This document shows, piece after piece, positions 1,469 to 34,611 of a stretch of DNA of 35,017 bases. Under the pieces are notes generated by a model, which had not been told where the DNA came from, did no database searches, and saw only the letters and a list, made by a program, of their open reading frames with translations. This stretch comes from Magnetococcales bacterium (GTDB lineage Bacteria > Pseudomonadota > Magnetococcia > Magnetococcales > Magnetaquicoccaceae). Location of the stretch: contig JADGAY010000020.1 in assembly GCA_015231775.1 (NCBI GenBank), positions 1 to 35,017 on the forward strand, written 5' to 3'. Every line of letters starts with the position of its first letter. The stretch's first letter is position 1. The translations under genes were made by a program, and so were the position numbers.

Positions 1469-1475
1469 ACTGACC

Positions 1476-1595
1476 TGACCAAACCGAGGAAATTCCCGGC
1501 CAGCCAAGCTTACTCCCGATTGGGCATTTCATCACTGACCAAACCGAGGAAAATCCCCGCCGGCCAGGTAAACTCCCGCGTGGGCGTTTCACCCA
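1476..1595. repeat. Two degenerate 60-bp tandem repeats upstream of tRNA-Pro
   Basis: Two direct units, 1476-1535 and 1536-1595, both begin TGACCAAACCGAGGAAA and share CTCCCG and TGGGC blocks further in. I count about 13 mismatches in 60 positions, roughly 78% identity. They end seven bases before the 5' end of tRNA-Pro, so on the minus strand they occupy its promoter region. Whether they carry promoters or are a neutral duplication cannot be told by eye. Confidence 0.6.
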
Positions 1596-8985: not shown

Positions 8986-9681
8986 TCACGGGGGTGAGGG
9001 GGATTTTCCCCCATCAGGCACGTTTTGATCGAATAGTAGCATGATTCCTTCGATGAGCAACCAGGCAAGCAGCATGGAGACGATGACATGGCTTAAATAG
9101 TGCGCGCCTTTCATCATCTGGTAGAGTCCCATGATCCAACCGAGGGTGACGCCCGTGGCCAGTCCGACCCAGCGCCAACCTGCCGGGAGCAGAAAAAACA
9201 GCACCATGAAGGCGAAGCCGCCGGAGGGGTGGCCGGCGGGAAAGCATTTTCCCGGACGTTTGGCGGGAAAATCATCGGGATTGGTGGCCAGAAACGGCAC
9301 ATGGGGCAGATCCCCGCCGTAGCGGGCCAGGGACCAGGGGCAATGAACATTGGAGATGTTTTTCAACCCCGAGATCGTTCCTGGCACGACGATCAGGGTT
9401 ACCAGGAGCAGGGCGAGTTTGCGGCGCCAGTGGATGTGGGTATGGAATCTCCAGGAATAGAGGAGTGCGAGCAGTGTGAGGATGCCCACGATGGCGATGG
9501 CGCGTTTGGCCCCGGTATAGAAGATGGCGCGCCAGAAGGGATCGTCCTTGTCGATCCACCATTGATGGGTATCGAACTGGAAGAACAGATCCTGGAAGAT
9601 CAGATCCACGCCCGTGGTTTCGAGCAGCAGGATCAGCAGCAGGGAGAGTGAGACCCAGAGGATGGATGGTTTGATGCGCAC
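8986..9681 (-). CDS. PAP2-family membrane phosphatase
   Basis: The 231-residue protein has about five or six membrane segments and the blocks of the PAP2 (acid phosphatase/lipid phosphatase) family. Block one is KNISNVHCPWSLARYGG, with Cys where classical members have Arg. Block two is FPAGHPSGGFAF. Block three is KGAHYLSHVIVSM, carrying the nucleophilic histidine. This variant pattern is familiar from envelope PAP2 proteins of Gram-negatives that act on lipid or isoprenoid phosphates, but the substrate cannot be read from sequence. The gene precedes the hybrid kinase on the same strand, and repeat copy A lies just upstream of it. Confidence 0.85.
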   Translation of the reverse strand: MRIKPSILWVSLSLLLILLLETTGVDLIFQDLFFQFDTHQWWIDKDDPFWRAIFYTGAKRAIAIVGILTLLALLYSWRFHTHIHWRRKLALLLVTLIVVPGTISGLKNISNVHCPWSLARYGGDLPHVPFLATNPDDFPAKRPGKCFPAGHPSGGFAFMVLFFLLPAGWRWVGLATGVTLGWIMGLYQMMKGAHYLSHVIVSMLLAWLLIEGIMLLFDQNVPDGGKSPSPP

Positions 9682-9710
9682 GGTGGGGCGGTGTTGATGG
9701 AAAACGTTTG

Positions 9711-10100
9711 CGGGGGACCGAGGGCCGAAGGTCCCCGGCGGGGGCGGGGCAGCGCCCCGCGACTTTTCTTTTGACTTTAGCGCGCTCTACAGAAAAGCGT
9801 TTTTTGCGAAAAAACGCGGCGCGCGTGCCTTGGAAGCGCCCTCCCTGGTCGTTTCAGGGAGGGCGCTTCATTTGCCATGAAACCAATCGCCTCCGGCGAC
9901 CCATTCTTGGGCCATGTTCGTGGGATCGTTTCGCAAACAACGCGAAACGATCCCACAGCCAAGGCAGGCGCGCAAAAAATTTTACAAAAGACGTGAAATT
10001 TTTTCCTCTGTAAAAGCGCGCCTTAAAGACAAAAATCAAAAGATAAAGTCCCAAGGGCTTTGCCCTTGGATCCCACCAGGGGCCAGGGGCCCCTGGACCC
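9711..10100 (+). repeat. Repeat island, copy A
   Basis: This multi-hairpin island fills the gap between the PAP2 start and the LTA-synthase-like stop. The left terminal module has stems GGGGACC/GGTCCCC (9713-9719, 9730-9736) and GCGGGGC/GCCCCGC (9744-9760), followed by a T-rich linker with TTTTGACTTT. The core holds a 9-bp stem at 9797-9817, a 15-bp stem with 7-nt loop (9833-9847 with 9855-9869), a small CGCC/GGCG stem near 9888-9899, a second 15-bp stem with 7-nt loop (9920-9934 with 9942-9956), and an A/T-rich hairpin 9974-10004 inside GGCGCGC/GCGCGCC (9967-9973, 10016-10022). The right module carries CCAAGGGC/GCCCTTGG (10051-10069) and CCAGGGGCC/GGCCCCTGG (10076-10096). Frames inside have no recognisable protein. 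Confidence 0.85.
10031..10096 (-). terminator. Candidate terminator of the topA/LTA-synthase-like operon
   Basis: Read on the minus strand, 42 bases after the stop codon come a 9-bp stem (10076-10096) and an 8-bp stem with a 3-nt loop (10051-10069), then GACTTTATCTTTTGATTTTT. A GC-rich stem followed by T-rich DNA is the form of an intrinsic terminator. The T-tract is interrupted, so efficiency is uncertain. It is the right terminal module of repeat copy A. Confidence 0.5.
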
Positions 10101-10137
10101 CACCAGTTGTCAAGGCCTTCCCATCTACCCGCCATTC

Positions 10138-12111
10138 TCACGGGATCTTCTTGTCCAACCCCTTCTTGCGCATGGTATTGGCGGTCTGATAGAAGGCAAT
10201 CGCATCCCGCAACCCCTCCCCATCCTCTTCCTTCTGCAACACCTGCCGCTCATCACCCATTTTACGCTCAAACCGATAAAAACTCGCCTGATGCTGCGGA
10301 CTGAGCACGGTCAACCGATCCCCAACGATCAAACCCAACTTCTGATAGGTGCCGATGAAGGCACGCCGCGCCTCGGGGGGGGTCTGGAAGATGTCCTGCC
10401 CAAAAAAACGACTGGTGTAGCTGAAATTCAACAAACCCAGAATCGTCGGCGTGATGTCGATCTGACTCATCAACGCGGACTCGAACCGGGCCGGCACATG
10501 CTTGGGCGCATGGATCATCAACGGAATGTGATAACGATGCACCGGCAATTCGGTCTTGCCGGCACTCCCCGCACAGTGATCCGCGGTGATCACGAACACC
10601 GTATCGTCAAACCAAGGCCGCTTGCGCGCCTGGGCCAGAAACTCCCCAATGGCCCAGTCGGTGTACTTCACCCCACCCTGACGCCCACCCGGCGCGGGGA
10701 TGTCGATGCGACCCGCCGGATAGGTGAAGGGACGATGGTTGGAGGTGGTCATGACAAAGTAATAAAACGGCTTGCCATCCGCATGGGCCCGATCGGCCTC
10801 GCGGATGGTGCGCCGGAACAGATCCTCGTCGGCCACCCCCCAGATGTTCTCATGGGTGATCTCGCTGGCGTCAAGCAGGGTGCGATCCACCACCTCGAAA
10901 CCGTTGTGACCGAAAAAGTGGTTCATGTTGTCGAAATAACCATACCCGCCGTAAATGAAACGGGTATCGTAACCACGCCGCTTGAAAAGATCCCCGGAGG
11001 AGAAGAGATCCTCGTTGTCGGGTCGCTTCACCTTGCTGCGGCCCGGCGTGGGCGGAACCGACAACACCAGACTCTCCATGCCGCGATCGGTACGGTTGCC
11101 GGTGGCATACAGATTGGTGAAGGTGAGGGACTCGTTGGCCAGTCGATCCAGATTCGGGGTGATGTGCTCCTGGTTCCCGTACAGAGCCATGTACTCGGCG
11201 CTCATCGATTCGATGGTCAACTGGATCACGTTGAGCCGCTTTTCCGCTCCCGGATGGACAATGGCACGGGCGATGTCCAACGGATCGATCGCATCGAGAG
11301 GCTTGGTGTCCGGCGATACCCGCAACCGCTCGCGCACCTGGGCCGCCATCTCCCGGTCGTCGTGTTGCAGATAGAACACCTCGTAAGGCAATTCGTTGTG
11401 GATAAAGGCTGAAAAAAGCGAATAGATGCCGTTCTTGGCCAGTTCGTTGTGGTAACGGTTATTGGAGACCTCGGAGAGATCCTGATCGATGGCGACAAAG
11501 GCAACCAGGGGGACGATCAGATAGAGCGACCCCTGACGACCCCGCTCCCGAAGCGTGGTGATGGCCGAAAAGGTGGGCTCGAGCCAGCCACGACGCTGGA
11601 TCAGCCAGCCAATGGCGAGCGTGGCCACCAGGATGGCCGAAAGCAATTTCGGCACCGGGTAGGATTGGCGGATGTTGCCGATCACCTCGTGGGTGTAGAC
11701 CAGATAATCCACGGCGATGAAGTTGTAACGCACCCCGAATTCGTCCCAGAAGATCCACTCCGAGACGCCGTTGAAGATCAACACATACAGGGCGCAAAAA
11801 TAGACCAGCTTGAACAACACACCTTGCACCGGATGGCGCAGGATCCGATCGGGCAGGGCGATCAGATAGAGGATCAGGGGAATGGAGAAATAAAAGGCCG
11901 CGAGGGTGTCAAAGAGCAGCCCGCTCGCTTCGATCATCACCAGGTTGATCAACGAGGGGTCCAGGGTATCGAACGTTTTGACGCTCAGAATAACCCGAGT
12001 CACGAACGACAGAACCAAAAACAGCAGAATGAACAGATGCAGCGCGCCAAAACGCGAGGCGAGCAACCGAACGCCTGGCACGGTCCGGGGTTCGGTTGCC
12101 AAGGCGATCAT
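10138..12111 (-). CDS. LTA-synthase-like (MdoB/OpgB-type) phosphoglycerol transferase
   Basis: The 657-residue protein has five hydrophobic segments in the first 210 residues and then a large extracytoplasmic alkaline-phosphatase-fold domain of the LTA-synthase sulfatase type. Candidate metal and catalytic residues are E301 in QLTIESMSAEYMALYG, the nucleophilic T341 in ATGNRTDRGMES, TTSNHRPF near 456, and D511-H512 in ITADH. In Gram-negative bacteria such enzymes transfer phosphoglycerol or phosphoethanolamine to periplasmic glucans or lipid-linked glycans; which applies here is not visible. Its ATG overlaps the topA TGA by four bases (ATGA), so it is translationally coupled to topA, an unusual partner. 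Confidence 0.88.
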   Translation of the reverse strand: MIALATEPRTVPGVRLLASRFGALHLFILLFLVLSFVTRVILSVKTFDTLDPSLINLVMIEASGLLFDTLAAFYFSIPLILYLIALPDRILRHPVQGVLFKLVYFCALYVLIFNGVSEWIFWDEFGVRYNFIAVDYLVYTHEVIGNIRQSYPVPKLLSAILVATLAIGWLIQRRGWLEPTFSAITTLRERGRQGSLYLIVPLVAFVAIDQDLSEVSNNRYHNELAKNGIYSLFSAFIHNELPYEVFYLQHDDREMAAQVRERLRVSPDTKPLDAIDPLDIARAIVHPGAEKRLNVIQLTIESMSAEYMALYGNQEHITPNLDRLANESLTFTNLYATGNRTDRGMESLVLSVPPTPGRSKVKRPDNEDLFSSGDLFKRRGYDTRFIYGGYGYFDNMNHFFGHNGFEVVDRTLLDASEITHENIWGVADEDLFRRTIREADRAHADGKPFYYFVMTTSNHRPFTYPAGRIDIPAPGGRQGGVKYTDWAIGEFLAQARKRPWFDDTVFVITADHCAGSAGKTELPVHRYHIPLMIHAPKHVPARFESALMSQIDITPTILGLLNFSYTSRFFGQDIFQTPPEARRAFIGTYQKLGLIVGDRLTVLSPQHQASFYRFERKMGDERQVLQKEEDGEGLRDAIAFYQTANTMRKKGLDKKIP

Positions 12112-14462
12112 GAGACGCCCGGCTGACTGGTGACCACCTTGACCCGATAGTCACACCCCTCCGTGGCGCACAAGAGTTCGGTGCCGAAGCGCTTGGTGAC
12201 CTTTTCGGTGACAAAGGGGGCGTTGCATTTCGGACAGGGGGTGTTGGGCAGAGGCTTGTTCCAAAGGGCGTTCTTGCACTTGGGATAGGCGGAACAGGAG
12301 TAGAAGATCTTGCCGTAGCGGGATTTTTTCTCCAAAAAGGTTCCCTTGCCGCAGGCCGGGCAGACCACGCCGGTATCGACGGGCTTGGAGAGGGGTTGGA
12401 TGTTGCGACAGCCCGGATAGCCGGAGCAGGCCAGATACTTGCCAAAGCGACCGCTCTTGATGAGCATCGGCTCGCCGCACTTGTCGCACTTCTCATCCGA
12501 CACCTCGGGCGGGGCGACTGGTTTCTCCTCCTCGCCCTCTTTTTTCAGATTCTGGGTGAAACGACACTCAGGATAGTTGGAGCAAGCCAGAAAACGCCCG
12601 AAACGTCCGAGCTTGATGAACAGTGGCTGCTGACACTCCGGGCACTTCTGATCCGTGGCCTCGCTGGTGATGTCGGAACGTTTGGTGGTGCTCTCCTTCT
12701 CCTCGATCTGACTCTTGAAGGGGGACCAGAAGGAGTCGAGCAGCGGCACCCAGGCCTGCTCCCCCCGGGACACCGCGTCGAGATCATCCTCGAGATGGGC
12801 GGTGAAGTGATAATCCACGTACTTTTCGAAGTGCTCCACCAGAAAACGGTTCACCACCTCGCCCACATCCTCGGGCACGAACTTGCGGGCATCCAGCTTC
12901 ACATAACCGCGTTCCTGAAGGGTGGACATGGTGGGGGCGTAGGTGGAGGGACGACCGATGCCGAAGCTCTCCAGGATCTTCACCAGCGACGCCTCGGTAT
13001 AGCGGGGCGGGGGTTCGGTGAAGTGCTGACGGGGCGTGACCGCGCGCATGGCCAGGGAGTCCCCCTGATCCATGGGCGGGAGCATGGTATCGGTTTCGTC
13101 CTCGTTGCGCTCCTGCTCGGGCTTGGCATCGGTGCTTTCGCTGTAGACCTCCATGAAGCCGGGAAAGGCCACCGAGGAGCCGTTGGCGCGCAGTTGATAC
13201 GGCGCGTGGGCATCCGCGCTTCCCACCGAGATGGTCACCGCCACCTGATCGATCTGCGCCGAGGCCATCTGACAGGCCATGGTCCGCTTCCAGATCAGCT
13301 CGTAAAGCCGGAAACCGTCCCGATCCAGACTCTTGCGCAACTGCTCGGGAAGGAGCGACGGTTCGGTGGGACGGATCGCCTCATGGGCCTCCTGGGCATT
13401 TTTGGCCGAGGATTTGTACTTGCGCGGGGTCTTGGGCACATAATCGGCGCCATAACGATCCTTGATCAACTGGCGCATGGCATTGACCGCCTCGTTGGCG
13501 AGCTGCACCGAGTCGGTACGCATGTAGGTGATCAGACCCACGGTCTCTTTCGAGCCGTCCGCCATGGTGATCTCGATCCCTTCGTAGAGCTTTTGAGCCA
13601 CCATCATGGTCTGACGGGCGGAGAAGCCGAGCTTGCGCGACGCCTCCTGTTGCAAGGTCGAGGTGATGAAGGGGGGCGAGGGGTTGCGCGCCACCCGTTT
13701 CTTTTCGATGGCGGCCACGTAGAGCGGTTGACCCTCGATGGCGGCCACCAACTGGCGGGCACGCGCTTCGTTGGGGATGTCGTAGCGGTCGAGTTTCTTT
13801 CCCTCGGCCACCGCCAGACGTGCCTCGAAGGGACGCGCACTCCCCTCCTGGGCAGCACGGATCAGATCCGCGGAGATGCTCCAGTACTCCCGCGTCTTGA
13901 AGGCACGGATCTCGTTTTCGCGCTCGCAGATCAAACGCAGGGCCACGGACTGCACCCGTCCGGCGGAGAGGCCGCGTCGCACCTTTTTCCAAAGGAGCGG
14001 ACTCAAATTGAATCCCACCAGATAATCCAACGCCCGCCGCGCCTGTTGGGCATTGACCAGATTCATGTCGATGTCGCGGGGATTGGCGATCGCCTCCAGG
14101 ATGGCCCGTTTGGTGATCTCGTGGAACACCACCCGTTTGCAGGGGATCTTGGCCAGCTCCTTGCGACTTCTGAGGGTCTCGAGCACATGCCAGGAGATCG
14201 CCTCGCCCTCGCGATCGGGGTCGGTGGCCAGCAACAGCATTTCGACGCCCTTGGCCGCCTTGGCCAATTCGGCCACATGCTTGGTCGAGTCGGAAGAGAC
14301 CTCGTAGTGCATCCGGAACTGATCCTCCGGATCCACGGAACCGTCCTTGGAGGGCAGATCACGAATATGGCCGTAGGTGGCGGCCACGGTATACTCCTTG
14401 CCAAGGAACTTATTGATCGTCTTGGCCTTGGCCGGAGACTCCACGATGACGAGAGTGGTCAT
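12108..14462 (-). CDS. topA: DNA topoisomerase I
   Basis: TopA relaxes negative supercoils by a type IA strand-passage reaction. The 784-residue protein opens MTTLVIVESPAKAKTINKFL with a TOPRIM domain including DPDREGE at 81-87. The catalytic tyrosine is Y313 in GLITYMRTDSVQ. The C-terminus has four cysteine-rich units, beginning CPECQQP, CDKCGEP, CPACGKG and CPKCNAP; the first three are clear zinc ribbons, typical of proteobacterial TopA. The gene follows dprA by 89 bases on the same strand, a common arrangement, and overlaps the LTA-synthase-like gene by four bases. Confidence 0.97.
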   Translation of the reverse strand: MTTLVIVESPAKAKTINKFLGKEYTVAATYGHIRDLPSKDGSVDPEDQFRMHYEVSSDSTKHVAELAKAAKGVEMLLLATDPDREGEAISWHVLETLRSRKELAKIPCKRVVFHEITKRAILEAIANPRDIDMNLVNAQQARRALDYLVGFNLSPLLWKKVRRGLSAGRVQSVALRLICERENEIRAFKTREYWSISADLIRAAQEGSARPFEARLAVAEGKKLDRYDIPNEARARQLVAAIEGQPLYVAAIEKKRVARNPSPPFITSTLQQEASRKLGFSARQTMMVAQKLYEGIEITMADGSKETVGLITYMRTDSVQLANEAVNAMRQLIKDRYGADYVPKTPRKYKSSAKNAQEAHEAIRPTEPSLLPEQLRKSLDRDGFRLYELIWKRTMACQMASAQIDQVAVTISVGSADAHAPYQLRANGSSVAFPGFMEVYSESTDAKPEQERNEDETDTMLPPMDQGDSLAMRAVTPRQHFTEPPPRYTEASLVKILESFGIGRPSTYAPTMSTLQERGYVKLDARKFVPEDVGEVVNRFLVEHFEKYVDYHFTAHLEDDLDAVSRGEQAWVPLLDSFWSPFKSQIEEKESTTKRSDITSEATDQKCPECQQPLFIKLGRFGRFLACSNYPECRFTQNLKKEGEEEKPVAPPEVSDEKCDKCGEPMLIKSGRFGKYLACSGYPGCRNIQPLSKPVDTGVVCPACGKGTFLEKKSRYGKIFYSCSAYPKCKNALWNKPLPNTPCPKCNAPFVTEKVTKRFGTELLCATEGCDYRVKVVTSQPGVS

Positions 14463-14551
14463 GAATCTTTCAGTGACACTTCACGATGGGGGTTGGAAGT
14501 CGAGAAAACCGTTTCCGGCTCTTGTCGATTGCTTGGATGGCGACGCGCCGT

Positions 14552-15700
14552 TCAACCGGGTCGCGTGGTGACGTAACGACCACCGGGCAACCTTTGCACC
14601 AGACCAGATAGTTCAAGATGCAGTAAGATGCGTGAAAGTGCGGTCACTGTCAATTGACAACACCGAGCCAGATCATCTTCCTGGGAGGTTCCGGCCTCGA
14701 TGAGGGTCAGAATCGTCGCCGCGTCGCCGGTACACCGGCTCGCGGGCGGGGCGTGAGCGCCGGAAGATGGCAACCGGGAAGGGGGAAGCGGTGGCGCGGG
14801 ACGACTCCAGCACAGCTCCTCGAGGATATCCTCGGCCCGTTCCACCAGACGTGCCCCCTGGCGCAGCAGGTTCAGATTGCCCCGCCGTGCCGGATCGTTG
14901 GGCGCGCCCGGCACGGCGAACACCTCGCGTCCCTGTTCGAGGGCCATGCGGGCGGTGAGGAGCGCGCCGGAGTTCTCCGGCGCCTCCACGATCACCACGC
15001 CGCGCGTCAGACCCGAGAGGATGCGGGCACGGGGAGGAAAGGCCCAGGAGATCGGTTGCAGTCCGAGGGGGGCCTCGCTCACCAGGCACCCTTGCTCCGC
15101 GATGCGCTGCTGCAACGCCTGATGTTCCCGCGGATGTACCACATCCAGGCCGGTGGCAAGCACCGCCACGGTGGGACCATCGGCCTCCAGGGCGCCCAGA
15201 TGGGCCGCGGCGTCGATGCCGCGCGAAAGACCGCTGACCACGACGATGCCGACACGGGTGAGTGCGCTGGCCAACTCCCGAGAAAATCCCTGCCCCCTGG
15301 GGGTGGTCCAGCGGGTACCGGTGATGGCGATCGCGGCTTCGGTGTTGAGGTGACGCAGGTCGCCAAGCACGAAGAGGGCAGGGGGCGGATCGTGGATGGC
15401 GGCCAGCAGGGGCGGATAGTCGGGGGTGCCGAGCATGATCATGCGACCGCCCAGGTCATGCAGGCGATCCAGTTCACGGGCGATCGGTTCGCTGGGGGTG
15501 TCGCGGCGGAAGCTCTCCAGAATCTTGATCAAGGCCGGGCGGATGCCGGGAATGGTGGACAAGCGACCGCGCGAGGCGGAAAGCACGGCCTCCGGGCTAC
15601 CCAGATGTTCGATCAATTCCGCGATCTGGACCGGTCCGATGCGCGGCGAACGGATCAGGCGCAACCAGTCGATGAGGCATTCGTTGTTCGGATTGTTCAT
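14552..15700 (-). CDS. dprA: DNA-processing protein DprA
   Basis: DprA binds incoming single-stranded DNA during transformation and loads RecA. The 382-residue protein has an N-terminal helix-hairpin-helix-like region (RLIRSPRIGPVQIAELIEHL), then the Rossmann-like DprA core with ITGTRWTTPRG, VVSGLSRGIDAAAHLGAL, VAVLATGLDVVHP, SEAPLG and SGLTRGVVIVEAPENSGALL, and a C-terminal winged-helix-like segment from about residue 320. The start at 15700 (MNNPNNECLIDWLRLI) suits the family. It is the first gene of a dprA-topA-transferase set. Its presence does not by itself prove natural competence. Confidence 0.94.
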   Translation of the reverse strand: MNNPNNECLIDWLRLIRSPRIGPVQIAELIEHLGSPEAVLSASRGRLSTIPGIRPALIKILESFRRDTPSEPIARELDRLHDLGGRMIMLGTPDYPPLLAAIHDPPPALFVLGDLRHLNTEAAIAITGTRWTTPRGQGFSRELASALTRVGIVVVSGLSRGIDAAAHLGALEADGPTVAVLATGLDVVHPREHQALQQRIAEQGCLVSEAPLGLQPISWAFPPRARILSGLTRGVVIVEAPENSGALLTARMALEQGREVFAVPGAPNDPARRGNLNLLRQGARLVERAEDILEELCWSRPAPPLPPSRLPSSGAHAPPASRCTGDAATILTLIEAGTSQEDDLARCCQLTVTALSRILLHLELSGLVQRLPGGRYVTTRPG

Positions 15701-15774
15701 GTCGTGGTGTACTGATCCGTATGTTGATTCGCGGGCATCAGCACGCGGTATGGACTGTTTAAGGACGGGGTCTC

Positions 15775-15884
15775 ATACCAATTCGCAGTCAATGGAGGAA
15801 CAAGGCGACAACAGGAGACGACCAGTACGGCGAGGAGCGAGCGACGCAGCCAACGCAGTTACTCCTATGACTGTGAGTTGGTAT
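15775..15884. mobile_element. 110-bp MITE-like element with imperfect terminal inverted repeats
   Basis: The ends ATACCAATTCGCAGTCA (15775-15791) and the complement of TGACTGTGAGTTGGTAT (15868-15884) match at 15 of 17 positions. Similarity continues a further ten or so bases inward (ATGGAGGAAC against TAGGAGTAAC). The interior has no gene. The ends can be read as TA plus inverted repeats starting CCAA, as for elements of the IS630/Tc1 type that duplicate TA; that assignment is inference. The right end lies inside the 3' end of the neighbouring methyltransferase frame and supplies its last codons and stop. Confidence 0.7.
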
Positions 15885-16698
15885 CCGGTTTACCTCCACA
15901 CACCGACCAACTGTATCCTTTGTACTGATAAATTTGGATATCCTCGAAACCCGATGCCCGCAAAAGCTCCATTGCCTCCTGTTTGGTATAATATTTGGCG
16001 TGACGGGGGTCGAGTTGATCGTAAATGGCCACCAACCGTCGCTCCGGGGTGAACCGGCTGAAGGTCTCGACAAAGTAATGACGCAGCGGCAGGGGCAGAT
16101 AGCGGCAAAAGAAGGTGTAAACATCCGTCAGTTTCACCAGCCAGCCTGACAAGGTGGTCAACCAGGCGTGGGGCATGCGCACGGTGAGCCAACGCAAAGG
16201 AAGGGTGAAGCACAGGTAGGCCCGGTTTCCTTCGTAACCATAGAGCCAGATGATCATGCGACCGCCAGGTCGCAGAGCGCGCCAGGCGGCATCGACAACC
16301 GGGCGCGGGTCTGGAATGTGATGCAGCACTCCAATGGAAAAGATTATGTCCAGATCTGCGTCCGCCGGGAGTTTGTCGCCCCGTTCATTGAGATAGGTGA
16401 TGCGGTCTGACCAGGCTTTGGTATTCTCCTTGAGGGCCTGGAATCCCCCGGAAGAGGGTTCCAGGGCAAGGACAAAACTGGCACCGCATTCACACAGTTG
16501 ACCGATCAATCGACCACTGCCACTGCCGATTTCCGCCACGCGCTTGCCGGGCAGGTCGGCGCGGAGGTTGATCAAGGGGCCCAATTTCTCCTGCGACCAC
16601 TCAACGGAGGCGTGATACCCTTCATTGGTTTGAAAATTATCCCATTTTTCACTGAAATCGCGTATCGTTTGATCTCTACGCGCGGTTTGTTCACTCAT
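15865..16698 (-). CDS. Class I SAM-dependent methyltransferase
   Basis: The 277-residue protein carries the SAM-binding motif VAEIGSGSGRL, the acidic block FVLALEPSSGG, and the post-motif DLDIIFSIGVLHHIPDP, as in methyltransferases of cofactor, lipid or glycan pathways. The target cannot be inferred. The start at 16698 (MSEQTARRDQTIRDF) is chosen over an in-frame ATG at 16737 because AGGA lies seven to eight bases upstream. The last residues, DTNSQS and the stop, are encoded by the right end of the MITE-like element, so the native C-terminus has been replaced. The AT-rich stretch 16740-16870 upstream differs from the GC-rich neighbourhood, consistent with an inserted segment. Confidence 0.82.
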   Translation of the reverse strand: MSEQTARRDQTIRDFSEKWDNFQTNEGYHASVEWSQEKLGPLINLRADLPGKRVAEIGSGSGRLIGQLCECGASFVLALEPSSGGFQALKENTKAWSDRITYLNERGDKLPADADLDIIFSIGVLHHIPDPRPVVDAAWRALRPGGRMIIWLYGYEGNRAYLCFTLPLRWLTVRMPHAWLTTLSGWLVKLTDVYTFFCRYLPLPLRHYFVETFSRFTPERRLVAIYDQLDPRHAKYYTKQEAMELLRASGFEDIQIYQYKGYSWSVCGGKPDTNSQS

Positions 16699-16875
16699 GA
16701 GCGTTCCTGATGGATGTCTGATAATGGATTTCTGCACACCTGTCCAAAACAGCCTGATGGCCGTGCGCCCTCCTGATAAAAATGACCAAACGGGGTTAAT
16801 GTTTTGTTGTTTATAAAATTCATGCTATATTTTATTTGAAATATTTTTATACATGCCATTCATTAAACATTAAAA

Positions 16876-17472
16876 TTATTTCTTGCCGATGCGTGGTTCG
16901 GTCCCGGCGAGCAACCGTTGGATATTGGCCCGATGGCGCCAGAAGACCAACAGCGTGATCACGCCATGGATGGCGGGTGCCAGGGCCGGGGCGGGCAGCC
17001 AGAACAGGGAGAGCGGACCAACCACGAAGGCGATCAGGGCCGAGAGTGAAGAGATGCGCAGCCATTTGGCCATGCCGACCCAGGTGAGCACCATCAGCAG
17101 ACCCGGCCAGGGGGTCCAGGCCAGCAGGGCGCCGAGGGCCACCGCCACCCCCTTGCCACCCTTGAAGCCAAGATAGACCGGATACAGATGGCCCAGAAAG
17201 GCGCACACCACCGTGGCGGCGGTGATCGGGGCATGCACGCCATGCAGCCAGATGGCGATCCCGACTGCCAGGGCCCCCTTGCCGATGTCGAGCAGCAGGG
17301 CGATGGCGCCGGCCTTGCGGCCCGCGACCCGCAGCACGTTGGTGGCGCCGATGTTGCCACTGCCTTGGGCGCGGATGTCGCCGACCCCGGCCAGACGGGC
17401 CACGATCAGGCCGAACGGGACCGCGCCCAACAGATAGGCGCCGATCAGGGTGGCGAGTTCCAGGAGGTTCAT
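16876..17472 (-). CDS. plsY: Glycerol-3-phosphate acyltransferase PlsY
   Basis: PlsY is an inner-membrane enzyme that moves an acyl group from acyl-phosphate to glycerol-3-phosphate, the first acylation in phospholipid synthesis. The 198-residue protein has about five membrane segments and the family motifs: GSGNIGATNVLRVAGRKAG near 38, YLGFKGGKGVAVALGALLAW near 100, and FWRHRANIQRLLAGTE at the C-terminus. Its ATG overlaps the stop of the upstream binding-protein gene by four bases (ATGA at 17472-17469), so expression is coupled. Confidence 0.96.
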   Translation of the reverse strand: MNLLELATLIGAYLLGAVPFGLIVARLAGVGDIRAQGSGNIGATNVLRVAGRKAGAIALLLDIGKGALAVGIAIWLHGVHAPITAATVVCAFLGHLYPVYLGFKGGKGVAVALGALLAWTPWPGLLMVLTWVGMAKWLRISSLSALIAFVVGPLSLFWLPAPALAPAIHGVITLLVFWRHRANIQRLLAGTEPRIGKK

Positions 17473-18641
17473 GGCTTGGGTGTTGCCTTGCTGGCCGGTT
17501 CGGAACCGGAGGGTTGCGTGGTATTTTTGGGTGACGCGGCTTTTTTGTTCTTGGCCGGATCGCCCTCCTTTTTGCCGGACGACTCCCGTTTGGCTGGTGC
17601 CGGCGGTCCCTGATTGAACGATGCCGCCTGGGCCACCACACCGGGTTGATTGAGGTGCGTTTCGCTCGCTTGAATGGTTTTCTGGCTCAGGGCCTTGAGG
17701 GGTTCCGTGGCCAGTTCCGGATCGGTTGGGGTCGGGGTGGCGACGTGGTATTCAGCGGACCACTTATCCAGAATCTTCTTCTCCTGGGAGAAGGCCTGTT
17801 CCATGACCCGTGGCAGAACCGAGGCGGCGGCGTGGGTGATCCCCTCTTGCAGCGTCTGGGGGAGTTTGTTGAACCACTCCAGGTTAACCACCAGCACCAT
17901 CCAACCGTGCAGGTGGCGGGTTTGGTGAAACGCCTTGGCGTTGGCATTGGCGAAGGCGGTGCGGTTGAGCATCTCCGGGGTGGCGGCGATCCCCTGGACC
18001 CAACCCGTGCTGATCGCCTCGGTGAGGTCGGAGGCCGGCATGGAGGAGGGTTGCAGACCGAGGGCCTGGTGAACCTCGATCATCCAGGGATCGTTGGGCA
18101 CGCGCGTTGGCAGGCCGTTCCAGGTAGGCGTGCCGCTGGCGGCGGCGCGGAAGTTGAGCACGCCATAAAACCCATACGAGCCATACCCGAGCACCAGGAG
18201 ATTCTTCCCCTTGGCCGCTTCGCGCAGGGCGGTATCCAGCGCGGATCCGGTGAGTCCGCGCACCTGTTCCGGGCGGGTGAAGAGGCGTGGCGTGACCAGT
18301 GCGCGAAACGGCGCCACTTGACGCGCCAGGGTGATGGGGGAGAAGAATCCCCCTTCGAGATTGCCGGCGAAGAGTTCCTGCAAGGCGGTCTCTTCAGCCC
18401 CCTTTTTGCCATTGGTGAGCAGTTCCGGGCGGATTTTCTTGCCCGAACTCTCTTCGAGCGTCTTGGCGAATTGGGAGAGGGCCTGCACATAGACCACATC
18501 CCCCTTGTGGATGGCCGCCAGGCGCATGGGAATGGTCTCGCCGGCATCGGGTGGCGGCGTGGCCGGTTCGGCGTGGAGCGGGGCGATGCAGGCCGAAAGG
18601 ATCCAGATCAAAAAGGCGATCAGCGGCTTGGGGTGGTGCAT
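17469..18641 (-). CDS. TRAP-like (DctP-type) periplasmic solute-binding protein
   Basis: The 390-residue protein has an export signal with a possible lipobox (LSAC at about 15-18) or alternatively signal-peptidase-I cleavage after LHA. The body resembles DctP-type TRAP binding proteins: AIHKGDVVYVQALSQFAKTL, GGFFSPITLARQVAPFRALV, GYGSYGFYGVLNFR, GWVQGIAATPEMLNR, and LEWFNKLPQTLQEGI, the helix typical of the family. From about residue 340 it ends in a low-complexity Lys/Pro/Ala/Ser tail, which is unusual. No TRAP permease genes lie nearby. It is translationally coupled to plsY. The ligand is unknown and a role linked to the envelope is only inferred from the neighbour. Confidence 0.75.
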   Translation of the reverse strand: MHHPKPLIAFLIWILSACIAPLHAEPATPPPDAGETIPMRLAAIHKGDVVYVQALSQFAKTLEESSGKKIRPELLTNGKKGAEETALQELFAGNLEGGFFSPITLARQVAPFRALVTPRLFTRPEQVRGLTGSALDTALREAAKGKNLLVLGYGSYGFYGVLNFRAAASGTPTWNGLPTRVPNDPWMIEVHQALGLQPSSMPASDLTEAISTGWVQGIAATPEMLNRTAFANANAKAFHQTRHLHGWMVLVVNLEWFNKLPQTLQEGITHAAASVLPRVMEQAFSQEKKILDKWSAEYHVATPTPTDPELATEPLKALSQKTIQASETHLNQPGVVAQAASFNQGPPAPAKRESSGKKEGDPAKNKKAASPKNTTQPSGSEPASKATPKP

Positions 18642-18685
18642 GGCGAAACGTTCTCGATGAAAGGAACATGGTCGGTGGGGGATGC

Positions 18686-18714
18686 TTGCAAAACCGACTG
18701 TTTTTTTCTATTGT
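18686..18714 (+). promoter_or_regulatory. Candidate sigma-70-type promoter of ssb
   Basis: TTGCAA at 18686-18691 and TATTGT at 18709-18714 are separated by exactly 17 bases, which include a T-run. They lie about 60 bases before the ssb start, in the gap between divergent genes. The match to TTGACA and TATAAT is moderate, four of six in each box. Confidence 0.45.
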
Positions 18715-18774
18715 GCCATGAAGGCGCGTCACAATACACGGCGAAATTTCTCGAAGGCAAGGGGGTGTTAACGA

Positions 18775-19311
18775 ATGTCCAGATCATTGAACAAAGTGCA
18801 GTTGATCGGCAATCTGGGTTCGGATCCGGAGGTGCGTTTCACCCAGGATGGGCGTCCCATCGCCAATCTGCGCATTGCCACGTCCGAATCGTGGAAGGAT
18901 CAGCAGGGGCAGATGCAGGAGAAGACCGAGTGGCATCGGGTGGTGATGTTCGGCAAGTTGGCCGAGATCGCCCAGCAATATTTGCGCAAGGGTTCCAAGG
19001 TTTACATCGAGGGTCAGTTGCAGACCCGCAAGTGGACGGACAATCAAAACCAGGAGCGTTACACCACCGAGGTGGTGTTGCAGCCTTACAATGGTCAGAT
19101 GGTGATGTTGGACTCCCGTCCCGCTGGCATGGGTCCGCAGGCTGGGAGCGGTTATGGTGGTGGCGCGGGCGGGCAGGAGCATGGGTCGAGCGAGTATCAT
19201 CGTCCGGCACCGGCTCCGGCGGCGGCGGGACGTGGGGGCGGTGGTGCCAGTCATCCGCCGTTGGATGATTTTGCCCAGCCCCCGAGTTTCAGTGATGATA
19301 TCCCGTTCTGA
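18775..19311 (+). CDS. ssb: Single-stranded DNA-binding protein
   Basis: SSB coats single-stranded DNA and recruits repair and replication enzymes through its acidic tip. The 178-residue protein has an OB fold in about residues 1-108 ([56 protein letters not shown]), a Gly/Ala/Pro-rich linker, and the C-terminal tip FSDDIPF. A G-rich ribosome site (AAGGGGG) lies about ten bases before ATG 18775. It is transcribed divergently from the plsY operon and is followed by repeat copy B. Confidence 0.97.
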
Positions 19312-19337
19312 TTGAAAAATTGAAAAGTTGGCGGGGT

Positions 19338-19402
19338 CCAGGGGCCAATGGCCCCTGGTGGGATCCAAGGGCAAAGCCCTTGGGACTTGTCCTTTGACTT
19401 TG
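19338..19402 (+). terminator. Candidate terminator of ssb
   Basis: Twenty-six bases after the ssb stop come a 9-bp stem with loop AAT (19338-19358) and an 8-bp stem with loop AAA (19365-19383), followed by GACTTGTCCTTTGACTTT. The form is that of an intrinsic terminator with an interrupted T-tract. It is the left terminal module of repeat copy B. Confidence 0.5.
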
Positions 19403-19741
19403 CCTTGATTTTCTTGCCTTTATCTTTATTCTTTTTCTTTTAGGCGCGTCTTCAAAGAAAAAATTTTTCACGTTTTTTGTGAAAAATTTTCGCGCCAGCC
19501 TTGGCTGCTGTCTCGTTTGGCGCCTTTGGCCAAACGAGACAGCGAACATGGCCCAAATTGCGGCATGGGGAGAGAACCCCCCAACAGGCCACCGAAGGCA
19601 GCTCTCCCGCCTCAAGCAATTCGCCCCGGATCGTTGCCCAAAAGCGGCAACGATCCGGGGCACATGAGACCGCGCGCTTGCGCACTTTTTCGCAAAAAAC
19701 GCGAAAAAGTGCTTATCGTGAAGAGCGCGCGAACGTCAAAA

Positions 19742-19778
19742 TCGTCAAAGTCAAAACCCTGGGAGAGGAATCTCCCAG
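19742..19778 (-). terminator. Candidate terminator of nrdJ
   Basis: On the minus strand, 48 bases after the nrdJ stop, an 8-bp stem CTGGGAGA/TCTCCCAG with a 4-nt loop is followed by GG and TTTTGACTTTGACG. On the plus strand the same stem is followed after a few bases by seven T, so it could act in both directions. It forms the right end of repeat copy B. Confidence 0.5.
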
Positions 19779-19826
19779 ACGCTATCTTTTTTTCAACAAT
19801 AAAAAACATTCATTCCTGGCTGGATC

Positions 19827-21956
19827 TCACAGCTTACCGTAATATCCTTCCTTCAACGCATCATACAGATTGGCCGCCGTGTGGATCTCCCCGTCATACT
19901 CCACCTCCTCATCCCCACGCAACTCCACACGCTCACCACTCTCCAACACGAAACGATAGGTGGTGCTGGCCAGATCCTGATTCTTCACCAAAACCCCCTG
20001 GAACGCCTCGGGATTGAACCGGAAGGTGGTACACCCCTTCAAACCACTCTCGTAAGCCTTGAGATAGATCTCCTTGAACCGGTCATAGGGGAAATCGGTG
20101 GGCACGTTGATGGTCTTGGAGATGGATGAATCGATCCACTTCTGCGCGGCAGCCTGAATCTCCACATGATCCTCGGGCGCGATGGCACTGGCATCCTGGA
20201 AATTGGCCGGCAAACGGGCCGACTCATCCGTGGCGAACGGATCAGCCTTGGGATTGATCAAGACACGATAGGCCAGAAGCTCGTAGGAGAATACGTCCAC
20301 CTTCTCCTTGGTCTTGCGCCCGGCCACGATCACGTTGCGGGAGTACTTGTGGGAGAAACTCGGCTCAATGCCGTTGGAACAGTTGTTGCCCAACGACAGG
20401 GCAATGGTGCCGGTGGGCGCGATGGAGGTGTGATGGGTGAACCGACAACCGTGTTCGGCGATCCTGGCCCGCAACGGCTCGGGAAACTGCGCCATGTACC
20501 GGCTGTAACGGGCCAACAACACCTTGCCAGGCACCTGATCCCCCACGCGAATGCCATCGGCAGCCATCTCGGGACGCTTGACCATCATGGCGGCATCCAC
20601 GGTGAACAACTCCTCCATGATCGGGGCCGCACCCTTCTCCAGGGCCAACTCCACACCACACTCAAAGCCGATGATCGCCATCTCCCGTGAGACATCCTCG
20701 GTGAAACGGACCGACGCGGCATCGCCATAGCTCATGTTGAGCATGACGATGGTCGAACCCAAACCCATGAACCCCATGCCGTGACGCCGCTTGCGGGCGA
20801 TCTCGGCGGCCTGGGGGGCCAAGGGCAATCCGTGGATCTCCACCACGTTGTCAAGCATGCGGGTGAACACCCGTACCACCTCGCGGAATCGCTCCCAATC
20901 AAAAACAGCCCGATCGGTGAACGGATCACACACGAAACGGGTCAGATCGATCGAACCGAGCAGACAGGCCCCATGGGGCGGCAAGGGCTGCTCTCCGCAC
21001 GGATTGGTGGAACGGATCTCCTCGCAGAACCAGTTGTTGTTCATCTGGTTCACTTTGTCGATGAGAATGAACCCCGGTTCGGCATAGTCGTAAGTGGAGG
21101 TCATGATCAGATCCCACAACCGCCGCGCCGGCAGACGACGATAGACCCGACAGGCCACCTCGCCGCGCTCGTTGAGTCGATAGGTCGGGGCAATCACCGG
21201 CCAGGGACGGTAGACCAGCTCGATGGAGGGATCTTGCAACTCGCGGGCATTGGCCGGGAAGACCAGATCCCACTCGCGATCCTCCTTGACCGCCTCGATG
21301 AAGGGGGTGGTGATCAGACACGACAGGTTGAACTGACGCAAACGACCATCCTCGCGCTTGGCGCGGATGAAGTCCAAAACGTCGGGATGGGAGATGTCGA
21401 AGGTGGCCATCTGCGCGCCACGCCGTCCGCCGGCGGAGGAGATGGTCTTGCACATGGCGTCGAAGATGTCCATGAACGACAACGGCCCCGAGGTGCTGGA
21501 ACCGGCACCCGCCACATAGGCCCCGCGCGGACGCAAGGTGGAGAACTCATAACCGATGCCGCAGCCGGCTTTCAAGGTGAGGCCCGCCTCGCGCACCATG
21601 TCGAGGATCTCGACCATGGAGTCGCCCACGATACCCGAAACCGTGCAGTTGATGGTGCTGGTGGCCGGCTTGTGATCGCCGGCACCGGCATTCGAGACGA
21701 TGCGCCCGCCAGGAATTGCCCCCTGACGCAGGGCATCGAGAAAACGGTGCTCCCATTCGGTCCGCTTCTGATCGGATTCCACCGCCGCCAGAGTGGCGGC
21801 CACCCGTTTCCAGGTATCCTCCAGATTCTGATCCACCGCTTCACCGCTGGAGGTCTTGAGACGATACTTGCTGTCCCAGATGGCCAGCGAGGCGGGTTGC
21901 AGATCAATGCCCGTTGACGGACAAGGGCTTGTTTTTGCAAAATCTTCCGTGGGCAT
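19827..21956 (-). CDS. nrdJ: Adenosylcobalamin-dependent ribonucleotide reductase (class II), NrdJa-like
   Basis: Class II enzymes reduce ribonucleotides to deoxyribonucleotides using a radical made from adenosylcobalamin, with or without oxygen. The 709-residue protein has the active-site loop STNPCGEQPLPPHGACLLGS with N318, C320 and E322, and C104 (STINCTVSG) as a likely active-site disulfide partner. The finger-loop region HGMGFMGLGSTIVMLNMSYG and the phosphate-binding APTGTIALSLGNNCSNGIEP are present. The protein ends YDALKEGYYGKL with no C-terminal cysteine pair. Such a pair usually re-reduces the active site. In split class II enzymes (NrdJa plus NrdJb) it lies on a separate small protein, which I do not see here. 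AGGA eight bases before ATG 21956 supports the start. I see no cobalamin riboswitch upstream. Confidence 0.93.
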   Translation of the reverse strand: MPTEDFAKTSPCPSTGIDLQPASLAIWDSKYRLKTSSGEAVDQNLEDTWKRVAATLAAVESDQKRTEWEHRFLDALRQGAIPGGRIVSNAGAGDHKPATSTINCTVSGIVGDSMVEILDMVREAGLTLKAGCGIGYEFSTLRPRGAYVAGAGSSTSGPLSFMDIFDAMCKTISSAGGRRGAQMATFDISHPDVLDFIRAKREDGRLRQFNLSCLITTPFIEAVKEDREWDLVFPANARELQDPSIELVYRPWPVIAPTYRLNERGEVACRVYRRLPARRLWDLIMTSTYDYAEPGFILIDKVNQMNNNWFCEEIRSTNPCGEQPLPPHGACLLGSIDLTRFVCDPFTDRAVFDWERFREVVRVFTRMLDNVVEIHGLPLAPQAAEIARKRRHGMGFMGLGSTIVMLNMSYGDAASVRFTEDVSREMAIIGFECGVELALEKGAAPIMEELFTVDAAMMVKRPEMAADGIRVGDQVPGKVLLARYSRYMAQFPEPLRARIAEHGCRFTHHTSIAPTGTIALSLGNNCSNGIEPSFSHKYSRNVIVAGRKTKEKVDVFSYELLAYRVLINPKADPFATDESARLPANFQDASAIAPEDHVEIQAAAQKWIDSSISKTINVPTDFPYDRFKEIYLKAYESGLKGCTTFRFNPEAFQGVLVKNQDLASTTYRFVLESGERVELRGDEEVEYDGEIHTAANLYDALKEGYYGKL

Positions 21957-22093
21957 GCGTGGTTTCCTGATGCAAAATTTTTAAGCAAAACAATTGATTA
22001 ACATGAATCCCCACTCTATCACGAATGGATTCGACAAGGAAGGGAGAACCGTTTCACAAGAGGGGGGAGGCCCGAAATTTTATCTTTTTTTAA

Positions 22094-22121
22094 TTGCATT
22101 CAGCTAAATTGATGTTACCAT
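22094..22121 (+). promoter_or_regulatory. Weak candidate promoter of the rhodanese gene
   Basis: TTGCAT at 22094-22099 and TACCAT at 22116-22121 are 16 bases apart in the AT-rich gap between divergent nrdJ and the rhodanese gene. Each box matches consensus at only four of six positions, so this is a low-confidence call. Confidence 0.3.
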
Positions 22122-22199
22122 ACGTTTATTTGATTGAGTGTCGCACAAAACTCGCGGCCCGAGCCACTCCGAACTCACCGCAATGAAAGGAACCGTCTC

Positions 22200-22868
22200 A
22201 TGCATCCCTCGCGCGTTTGGAAATTCTCGTTCGTGCTCTTGCTGGTATCCTGGCTGATACCGATCGAATCCAGTCTGGCTCAACCTGTCAACATCACCAA
22301 GGATCTCGAAAAATTCACGGTCAAACACGGCAATCAGCAGGTCACGGTCATGCGCAATCAGGATACCCGCGCCGTGATCGAACCCGATTTCGCCAAGGTC
22401 GCCCGCAACTGTCCGCCGTTCTGCATCCAGCCCATGGAGGCGGCACCGGGTGTCAAGACCATCGAGGAGCTGGAGTTGATCGATTTCATGATGCGTGAGG
22501 TCAACAACGGAACCGGTCTCCTGATCGATGCCCGCACCCCGGATTGGAATGCCCAAGGGGTGATTCCCGGTTCGATCAACATCCCCTACTCGGATATCTC
22601 CCCATCCATGGGAGCCAACCCCATGGAGGTCGAACGGGTTCTCAAGCCAATCGGTGTGATGGCCATGGATTCAGGTCAACTGGATTTCGCCAAGGTGAAA
22701 AAGGTGGCGATCTGGTGCAACGGTCCGTGGTGCGGACAGTCCCATGCGGCCATCCGTGGCTTGATCGAACTCGGATTTCCGGCGGAGCAGATTTTATATT
22801 ACCGGGGCGGCATGCAGATGTGGAAGCTGTTCGGTTTCACTGTGGTGCCACCGGTGGATGAGCTGTAA
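22200..22868 (+). CDS. Exported rhodanese-domain protein
   Basis: The 222-residue protein has a signal peptide (MHPSRVWKFSFVLLLVSWL, cleavage probably after LAQ near residue 25), so it acts in the periplasm. The C-terminal half is a rhodanese domain: LLIDARTPDWNAQGVIPGSI and the active-site loop AIWCNGPWCGQSHAAI, where the first cysteine is the expected sulfur carrier and a second lies four residues on. The N-terminal half contains a separate NCPPFC pair near residue 62. The cysteine pairs suggest thiol or persulfide chemistry, but the substrate is unknown. The start at 22200 is chosen for AAAGG nine bases upstream and for the signal peptide. Confidence 0.85.
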   Translation: MHPSRVWKFSFVLLLVSWLIPIESSLAQPVNITKDLEKFTVKHGNQQVTVMRNQDTRAVIEPDFAKVARNCPPFCIQPMEAAPGVKTIEELELIDFMMREVNNGTGLLIDARTPDWNAQGVIPGSINIPYSDISPSMGANPMEVERVLKPIGVMAMDSGQLDFAKVKKVAIWCNGPWCGQSHAAIRGLIELGFPAEQILYYRGGMQMWKLFGFTVVPPVDEL

Positions 22869-23035
22869 TTCAAGTTCCTTCACCAGAATTCGTGCGATCC
22901 CGAATGCGATGGATGGTCGCATCGGTCCATGTACTCCTTTTGACCGCTCTGAATGGCGTGAACGGCTGAACGAAAGATCCGCGCCCTGGATCACGACAGC
23001 ACGGCTCGATCATCCGAATTACAAGGAATCCATGC

Positions 23036-24085: not shown

Positions 24086-24122
24086 CGGCTCGTCCCGAAC
24101 CGCCCCGACGTTCAGACGCGAC

Positions 24123-25514: not shown

Positions 25515-25526
25515 GCCCTGCATCCC

Positions 25527-26534: not shown

Positions 26535-26571
26535 ATCACCTCGGTTGAAAATTGGGGGGTTGTAAGGTGAT

Positions 26572-26920
26572 GGGGTCCAGGGGCCCATGGCCCCTGGTGG
26601 GATCCAAGGGCAAAGCCCTTGGGACTTGTTTTTTGACTTTCGCGCGCTTTTTGCGAAAAAGGCGCAAGCGCGCGGGGCACATCGCTCGCGACGAACAAGC
26701 CGCCCACGGCGGCCAGTTTGGGGCAAGGCGAAGAGGCGTCGTTTTGCCAACAACGCAAAACGACGCCTCTTCCAAGGCTGGCGCGAAATTTTTTCACAAA
26801 AAACGTGAAAAAATTTTCTTTTAAGGATGCGCCTGAAAGTCAAAAGCAAAAATCAAAAATTCAGAACCTCGGAGGCTCTGCCTCCGAACCTCCGCCGGGG
26901 ACCTTCGGTCCCCCGTCCCC
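26572..26920 (+). repeat. Repeat island, copy C (short form)
   Basis: This copy separates the dehydrogenase stop from the neuB start. The left module is CCAGGGGCC/GGCCCCTGG (26577-26597) and CCAAGGGC/GCCCTTGG (26604-26622), then TTGTTTTTTGACTTT. The core has the GCGCGC section with a TTTTTGCGAAAAA hairpin, a GCCGCC/GGCGGC stem near 26699-26713, and an 18-bp perfect stem with 7-nt loop (26730-26747, 26755-26772). CCAAGGCTGGCGCG and the A/T-rich TTTTTTCAC hairpin follow. The right module has CGGAGGC/GCCTCCG (26870-26886) and GGGGACC/GGTCCCC (26897-26913). The first long variable hairpin of copies A, B and D is missing, with a short TCGCTCGCGA in its place. Confidence 0.85.
26840..26913 (-). terminator. 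Candidate terminator after the dehydrogenase gene
   Basis: On the minus strand, about 30 bases past the dehydrogenase stop, stems GGGGACC/GGTCCCC and CGGAGGC/GCCTCCG with 3-nt loops are followed by GTTCTGAATTTTTGATTTTT. If active, it would separate neuA-dehydrogenase transcription from neuB and the GT2 fusion gene. It is the right module of repeat copy C. Confidence 0.45.
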
Positions 26921-26943
26921 TGTGACCATTTTTACCGCCCTGG

Positions 26944-34559: not shown

Positions 34560-34611
34560 GGGGGTCAAAAGTTGATTGAGTGGCCAAATCAGGTTACCAA
34601 GTATCAAGGAG

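Follow-up and report, generated by a model that had tools for sequence, protein, structure and literature searches.

A quasi-palindromic multi-hairpin repeat family of Magnetococcales, probably a non-autonomous mobile DNA element

Introduction

BIMEs of Escherichia coli bind gyrase and IHF, and binding of gyrase, IHF, or Pol I is a mark of BIMEs. BIMEs resemble the composite repeat described here, being intergenic head-to-head dimers with structured spacers. BOX elements are built of A-B-C modules (boxA-boxB(n)-boxC) and, to our knowledge, are not known as inverted pairs of multi-hairpin halves, which sets them apart by description. Some BOX copies are reported to be expressed (PMC3049150). 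REPIN units are described as 16-mer ends that commonly stand 71 or 110 bp apart, and inverted doublets together with singlets are regarded as their marks (PMC3116915). CGTC REPs apparently have no dedicated transposase, and Magnetococcus is absent from the main text of the study concerned (PMC3733652). Template switching has been discussed as a cause of paired changes, in that case for RNA genes (PMC8794818). Titles and abstract openings from the literature on repeats of Magnetococcales and Magnetococcus and on MITEs and hairpins, with few subscription journals covered, contained no account of the family reported below.

The window analyzed here is a stretch of 35,017 nucleotides (contig JADGAY010000020.1, assembly GCA_015231775.1) from the MAG of a Magnetococcales bacterium (3.82 Mb, 389 contigs, 89% complete; designated G000, with related genomes numbered in the same way and loci given L numbers). 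An earlier note on its sequence had pointed to four intergenic multi-hairpin islands, named A to D here, and had offered a non-autonomous mobile element, a structured RNA, or a DNA structure for chromosome organization as explanations.

Results

Four islands in the window

Inspection of the sequence together with a hairpin list showed that the features noted earlier are present at their coordinates in all four islands (Table 1). The islands belong to one family, as had been claimed, but copy B is oriented oppositely to the other three. The shared plan needs correction in two further points: the "one or two long hairpins" hold except that copy C has no long hairpin (H2) in its left half, and copy A carries CCAAGGCAGGCGCG in place of the CCAAGGCTGGCGCG of the plan. 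In copy D, H1 was not recovered as a separate stem in the hairpin scan. When copies C and B were folded as single-stranded DNA, z-scores of -10.3 and -11.0, respectively, were obtained against 100 shuffles each, and thus their structure is far beyond chance. The proposed nested pairing of TTTGACTTT with AAAGTCAAA appears in the predicted DNA folds of both copies. A tRNA-Phe called by ARAGORN on the minus strand (26845-26935), overlapping the right terminal module of copy C, is probably false because Rfam gave it no support. Elsewhere in the window (1475-1591), a 57-bp direct repeat with 60-bp spacing lies beside a tRNA-Pro gene.

Table 1. Positions of the four composites, their parts, and their neighboring genes in the window
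Feature	Position	Strand	Evidence
Copy A, whole composite	9711-10100	+ (right-type half on + strand)	Sequence, R1, hairpin list, Pfam
Copy A neighbors: PAP2; sulfatase	8986-9681; 10138-12111	-; -	Pfam supports both on - strand
Copy A left terminal module, two GC hairpins; inner stem 9744-9760 terminator-like, inward	9712-9760	+	Hairpin and terminator scans
Copy A left half, GCGCGC-closed hairpin H1; stem-loop 9797-9817	9780-9825	+	Sequence, hairpin list
Copy A left half, long hairpin H2	9833-9869	+	Hairpin list; R1 match 9760-9872, - strand
Copy A right half: H3 9920-9956, CCAAGGCAGGCGCG, A/T hairpin H4 9974-10004, GCGCGCC, A-rich linker	9917-10041	+	R1, 115.1 bits
Copy A right terminal module, hairpins 10051-10069 and 10076-10096; terminator-like on - strand, inward	10051-10096	-	Hairpin and terminator scans
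Copy B, whole composite, inverted relative to A, C, and D	19333-19780	-	Sequence, R1, hairpin list
Copy B neighbors: ssb; ribonucleotide reductase	18775-19311; 19827-21956	+; -	
Copy B left terminal module, two GC hairpins; inward terminator-like site 19364-19384	19338-19383	+	Hairpin and terminator scans
Copy B right-type half; H4 19460-19490, H3 19507-19543	19424-19546	-	R1, 121.3 bits
Copy B left-type half; H2 19623-19661, H1 19682-19712	19620-19750	+	R1, 73.1 bits
Copy B other terminal module, single hairpin, inward terminator-like	19759-19778	-	Hairpin and terminator scans
Copy C, whole composite, H2 missing	26572-26920	+	Sequence, blastn, hairpin list, congener comparison
Copy C neighbors: neuB-like gene; 2-hydroxyacid dehydrogenase	start upstream of about 26530; 26944-27900	-; -	Congener comparison (neuB-like start)
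Copy C left terminal module, two GC hairpins, inward terminator-like	26577-26622	+	Hairpin and terminator scans
Copy C GCGCGC-closed hairpin H1 (26644-26665)	26640-26674	+	Sequence, hairpin list
Copy C right half: H3 26730-26772, CCAAGGCTGGCGCG, H4 26786-26816, closing GCGCC, start of A-rich linker	26730-26852	+	R1, 117.0 bits
Copy C right terminal module, two hairpins; inward terminator-like site 26880-26862, an alternative stem overlapping the module	26869-26915	-	Hairpin and terminator scans
Copy D, whole composite, right end at the contig end; left neighbor fpg 33729-34607 (-)	34612-35017	+	Sequence, R1, Pfam
Copy D left terminal module, two GC hairpins	34614-34658	+	Hairpin list
Copy D left-type half; H2 34742-34780	34679-34783	-	R1, 34.0 bits
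Copy D right half; H3 34830-34872, H4 34885-34919	34830-34953	+	R1, 120.3 bits
Copy D right terminal module, two hairpins	34966-35011	-	Hairpin list

Architecture of the composite

The composite is a quasi-palindrome of about 350-490 bp, in which two homologous halves face each other in inverted orientation. From the outside inward, a half consists of one or two GC hairpins, an A/T linker, a GCGCGC-closed hairpin, and a long hairpin, and leads to the common center, a small hairpin of the GCCGCC/GGCGGC type. The linkers are T-rich on the left or A-rich on the right, most of them with TTTGACTTT or its complement AAAGTCAAA, and the long hairpin of the right halves in G000 has a 7-nt loop. The halves are regarded as homologous because a nucleotide profile made from right halves also matches the left halves on the other strand; this homology and inversion had been missed in the first reading. 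One locus (L007) is a pair of two right-type halves.

Several loci depart from this plan. The terminal module of L124 (G002, contig C63, 22500-23700) is expanded in tandem, with four hairpins at one end and six at the opposite end, and L138 (G039, contig C23, 25100-26400) has an extra long inverted repeat beyond the terminal modules, of more than 50 bases per side by eye. In three loci of G003 (L184-L186), terminal modules of the same type surround a different, small interior, a hairpin rich in AACCAA/TTGGTT, which suggests that cores are interchangeable between terminal modules.

Copies in the genome of origin

The core recurs throughout G000, where a blastn search with copy C gave at least 67 matches (40 of 149 candidates scored). 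From an alignment of 34 right halves, a covariance model (R1) of this half was built, which gave at least 140 half-element matches in the same genome (150 of 1469 candidates scored). Among the R1 matches listed, 36 of the 37 pairs of neighboring halves less than 500 bp apart are inverted with their inner ends facing, and the gap is 40-53 bp in 27 of these 36. By manual count of the same matches, 31 of the 36 inverted pairs have just one half above 100 bits, so that a pair usually joins a left type with a right type. Halves with no partner within 500 bp make up 66 of the 140 listed, some of them at contig ends. The note had allowed for a chance assembly, with generic end hairpins and cores not found together elsewhere; the 36 inverted half-pairs among the listed matches show the cores together, and what survives of the "generic" end hairpins is that terminal modules are in wider use than the core, as in the R1-negative G003.

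Copies were observed at the ends of eight G000 contigs (C53, C115, C193, C357, C122, C32, C114, and C119), and the family therefore probably breaks assembly. In G012, two copies at different loci have left halves that are 99% identical (blastn 90% over 378 bp). In G027, a single contig of 4.72 Mb, a 97% identical stretch of 772 bp containing the element occurs at L140 (C1, 447800-449100) and L141 (C1, 316000-317300), and these loci also show tandem duplications of about 126 and 374 bp.

Distribution

With strict filters, under which weak matches are lost, R1 matched 29 of the 61 genomes in the set of relatives, namely, 29 of 48 members of the order and none of 13 beyond it. In a draw from the phylum, under the same kind of filters, 26 of 299 genomes matched, all of them among the 46 order members listed; of the 253 genomes not listed, all without a match, at most two (G022 and G043) can be order members. 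A pattern scan of named genomes found the Magnetococcales isolates YD0425bin7 (25 stretches) and nHA4bin8 (6). Four pattern matches outside Magnetococcales (L050, L051, L054, and L055) were attributed to chance, the H1 stem being missing by eye, and the only match on a viral contig (L073) was also taken as chance because it is 100% identical to L050 over two stretches. Copy C had no match in the plasmid and phage collections. The composite repeat is thus real, high-copy, and so far found only in Magnetococcales.

Among the loci listed from other genera, the plan is kept and the sequence is largely different; in G027, it is mainly the right half that is recognizable. R1 had no match in G001, G003, or G008, which belong to the genus of the window. 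At a contig end, G001 has a terminal module followed by the beginning of a GCGCGC section (L189), G003 has terminal modules around another interior, and G008 and G009 have reduced remnants, which indicates that R1 does not catch every member.

Evolution of the stems

In the alignment of 34 right halves, 98.3% of the stem cells are standard pairs, and double changes are seen in 16 of 31 pairs. On four of five pairing measures, none of 500 shuffles reached the observed value; on the fifth, which counts further pair types, 43 of the 500 were as high. Of 1050 stem cells, 1025 are Watson-Crick, and the remaining ones comprise 7 G-U, 2 A-C, and 16 other mismatches. Double changes outnumber single ones by 170 to 7; the 170 include differences between subfamilies and, since the copies form subfamilies, are not 170 independent events.

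On its transcribed strand, an RNA is expected to tolerate G-U pairs well. SRP RNA from the same order, used as a control (30 loci of 42 SRP matches, one per genome), had 59 G-U and 7 A-C among 869 cells and a double-to-single ratio of 80:51; the SRP set consists of orthologs with 80% mean identity and the element set of paralogs with 72%. A larger alignment fitted by the covariance model contained 6 G-U and 5 A-C in the best 44 hits and 14 and 26, respectively, in hits 45-110, with no excess of wobble in the orientation of the model. Stems that stay Watson-Crick with hardly any G-U, though the copies differ, fit DNA palindromes better than RNA. This pattern is what template switching within the palindrome, or the exchange of whole hairpins between copies, would leave. 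The islands had no Rfam match at the gathering score; with E-values up to 5, only a weak Leu_leader match was obtained in copy D (E 1.1, 23.2 bits versus a cut-off of 50).

Terminator-like modules and gene context

Predicted terminator-like sites directed inward fall on every one of the six terminal modules in copies A, B, and C. Five of these sites are the inner hairpin of the module itself, and one (right side of C) is an alternative, overlapping stem. The scan spanned 9600-27000, and its total of 22 sites is within chance (16.4, sd 4.6). Promoter-like sites in the same region were not in excess (4 found versus 5.2 expected). Among 57 halves of G000 with a placed module (four without a module and four too short were left out), the 25 bases just inside the module are A-rich (≥40%) in 48 and those just outside are T-rich in 7. 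Together with the scarcity of G-U wobble in the stems and the Rfam result above, these inward terminator-like modules weigh against the "structured RNA" of the earlier note, which we regard as disfavored.

The orientation of neighboring genes was assigned with a codon-usage model at 39 of the 41 loci in G000 (L004 and L032 left out), 14 of which had no usable flank. The 25 readable copies lie between tandem (14) or convergent (11) genes and never between divergent ones, with a coding signal on both flanks in 22; dropping L010, L025, and L037, in which one or both flanks score negative for coding, leaves 12 tandem, 10 convergent, and 0 divergent. A count based on the longest ORF (11 tandem, 10 divergent, 4 convergent, and 4 unknown of 29) was rejected because it made copy A divergent, while Pfam places both of its neighbors on the minus strand. 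REPs, too, are reported mainly from between tandem and convergent genes (PMC3733652).

Filled and empty sites

Comparison of orthologous sites revealed presence and absence of an island at two intergenic positions, those of copies A and C. At the copy A site, the PAP2 and sulfatase genes abut or overlap, with no island, in eight congeners (G001, G002, G004, G005, G006, G008, G009, and G010); G003 has another insertion there, and G007 is rearranged. The copy C site is empty in G009, has one terminal hairpin with a T-rich linker in G004, carries a related composite of another subtype in G002, and shows terminal modules up to the contig end in G001. According to the locus listing, the genes next to copy B are on separate contigs in 8 of 10 congeners, and in G006 and G010 they lie well within long contigs, which makes a real synteny breakpoint at copy B in these two genomes. 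Orthology of copy B with L065 was rejected, as the element at that site in G007 is a different and shorter one. G000 and G007 share, in one orientation, a copy next to a miaA-like gene; between the two genomes, the hairpins of this copy have changed in both arms, and its terminal module is similar.

Of the three options in the earlier note, the non-autonomous mobile element is the best supported. The dispersed copies and the presence or absence at the A and C sites speak for it; movement itself was not observed, and at least one copy, the one beside the miaA-like gene, occupies the same place in G000 and G007.

Candidate enzymes and insertion ends

At 20 chosen Y1_Tnp loci (17 genomes, 57,273 bases, some clipped by contig ends; ten further loci, L074-L083, were outside the flank test), no half was found nearby, the one match having an E-value of 0.15. 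G000 has one Y1 match, a 109-aa frame near a contig end that lacks model positions 1-27; given this partial frame and a MAG that is 89% complete, a complete Y1 gene is possible in this genome. Within the order, Y1_Tnp was present in 24 of 29 R1-positive and 9 of 19 R1-negative genomes (p = 0.013, uncorrected for phylogeny), and RAYT-length genes, by a rough classification, in 9 of 29 and 4 of 19 (p = 0.52, likewise uncorrected). The five R1-positive genomes with no Y1_Tnp match include G002 (28 R1 hits, 93% complete) and G036 (100% complete).

By eye, neither a GTAG nor a CGTC tag is present in the 8-base flanks of the listed hairpins of copies A-D. A MITE of a DDE transposon would have target-site duplications and terminal inverted repeats in common with an autonomous element. 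Such duplications were sought in the 12 of 32 copies whose ends could be placed by pattern, with some ends misplaced (at least L004, L018, and copy A badly); the mean longest direct match was 4.5, compared with 4.05 in mismatched pairs, and these copies share a short terminal sequence with no clear duplication. An autonomous version was sought in five regions where inverted halves are 0.3-3.6 kb apart and was rejected, as these hold ordinary genes (gyrB-, MlaD-, cytochrome-, and AAA-ATPase-like, from translations read by eye) and no transposase. The gene between two single halves at L128 reads, by eye, as an RNA methyltransferase. Integron attC-like sites were also considered and set aside.

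Discussion

Based on the architecture, distribution, and stem evolution, the islands are likely to be a non-coding, REPIN/BIME-like, non-autonomous mobile element that is larger than the known ones and acts as DNA. In the mechanism that we propose, hairpins in single-stranded or extruded DNA would be bound by a hairpin-recognizing enzyme supplied in trans, which would bring about movement. Template switching in replication, together with exchange between copies, would keep each stem perfect, and the inward terminators may keep the transcripts of neighboring genes out of the core. We advance only tentatively the stronger proposal that the family forms a class of its own: a palindrome assembled from seven to nine hairpins and shielded by its own inward-pointing terminators. 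Its structure, and not its sequence, would be what is passed on across the order; template switching and module exchange would keep it perfect, and an enzyme other than a REP-associated Y1 transposase would move it.

The same logic of extragenic inverted doublets, with singlets as decay products (PMC3116915), and the association of Y1_Tnp with the family would also follow if the islands were REPINs proper, moved by a RAYT or by a Y1 transposase of the IS200/IS605 type. We consider this unlikely, as no half lies near the chosen Y1_Tnp loci, RAYT-length genes are not associated with the family, the flanks of the four copies carry no GTAG/CGTC tag, and several positive genomes, G002 and G036 among them, have no Y1_Tnp match. 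A further reading takes the conserved fold as that of a structured non-coding RNA that many loci encode and that regulates in cis or acts in trans. The strong compensatory pattern and the deep folds agree with it, and REPs and BOX are partly transcribed elsewhere (PMC3733652, PMC3049150). The scarcity of G-U and A-C cells relative to SRP RNA, the model-fitted alignment with no wobble excess, and the Rfam result, in which the Leu_leader match of copy D is weak, argue against an RNA; moreover, the inward terminator-like sites would stop read-through, and promoter-like sites are not in excess between 9600 and 27000. An RNA is accordingly quite improbable.

Selection for a DNA landmark useful to the host, one that binds nucleoid proteins or gyrase or takes part in chromosome folding, could have spread the islands to many sites. 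The plan is retained in 29 of 48 genomes of the order despite strong sequence change, and BIMEs of E. coli bind gyrase and IHF. Such a role is nonetheless rather improbable in view of R1 counts that range from 0 (in G001, G003, and G008, R1 missing diverged members) to 140 listed in related genomes, of the copy A site with no island in eight congeners, and of the internal deletions and solo parts that exist. The islands could also be domesticated bidirectional terminators, with useful terminal modules and a core that is mere baggage. This would account for the inward terminator-like sites at the six modules of A-C, for the position of the readable copies 3' of one or both neighboring genes (none of the 25 divergent), and for the terminal modules around other interiors in G003. 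It leaves unexplained the conserved multi-hairpin core, the heterotypic halves, and the near-constant center, and between genes that abut or overlap in eight congeners, as at copy A, a terminator would be harmful rather than useful; we regard it as very improbable.

The family adds to the magnetotactic cocci a high-copy repeat whose size and architecture are unusual. With its many copies in each genome, it offers a natural experiment on the survival and evolution of long perfect palindromes in a chromosome, and the coupled changes in its stems, where wobble intermediates are all but absent, allow a direct test of the template-switch model. Copy A brings terminator-like modules to a place where, in eight congeners, two genes abut, so the family may rewire expression. 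Contig ends also carry copies, and copy B is at a synteny breakpoint.

Template-switch hairpins, as presented in PMC8794818, would account for stems that are perfect and that change on both sides at once with no G-U intermediates; they represent a mutation mechanism and not an element family, unlike the Magnetococcales repeat. With BOX of S. pneumoniae (PMC3049150), the composite shares an interspersed distribution and extensive secondary structure, and BOX is regarded as parasitic. The composite also resembles GTAG/CGTC REPs and their HH heterodimers (PMC3733652): both are intergenic, lie mostly between tandem and convergent genes, and form head-to-head dimers and heterodimers with structured spacers. 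Unlike those REPs as described there, the composite has no tag in its 8-base flanks and is a far larger unit.

With REPINs (PMC3116915), the family has in common inverted repeats with a near-fixed spacer, an extragenic position, many copies, compensatory hairpin changes, and the coexistence of singlets and doublets. The homologous repeats are inverted in 36 of 37 pairs with a near-constant gap (40-53 bp in 27 of 36), and the at least 140 half matches are dispersed over many contigs and mostly extragenic, with a coding signal on both flanks in 22 of the 25 readable copies. No linked RAYT gene flanked by the repeat was seen at the 20 Y1_Tnp loci examined, and no half lies beside them. The element thus works like a REPIN but is not filed as one, because of these Y1 loci, the lack of tags, and the ordinary genes enclosed by wide pairs. 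It also differs from REPINs as described (PMC3116915) in that each half carries three to four hairpins of its own and the whole extends over about 350-490 bp.
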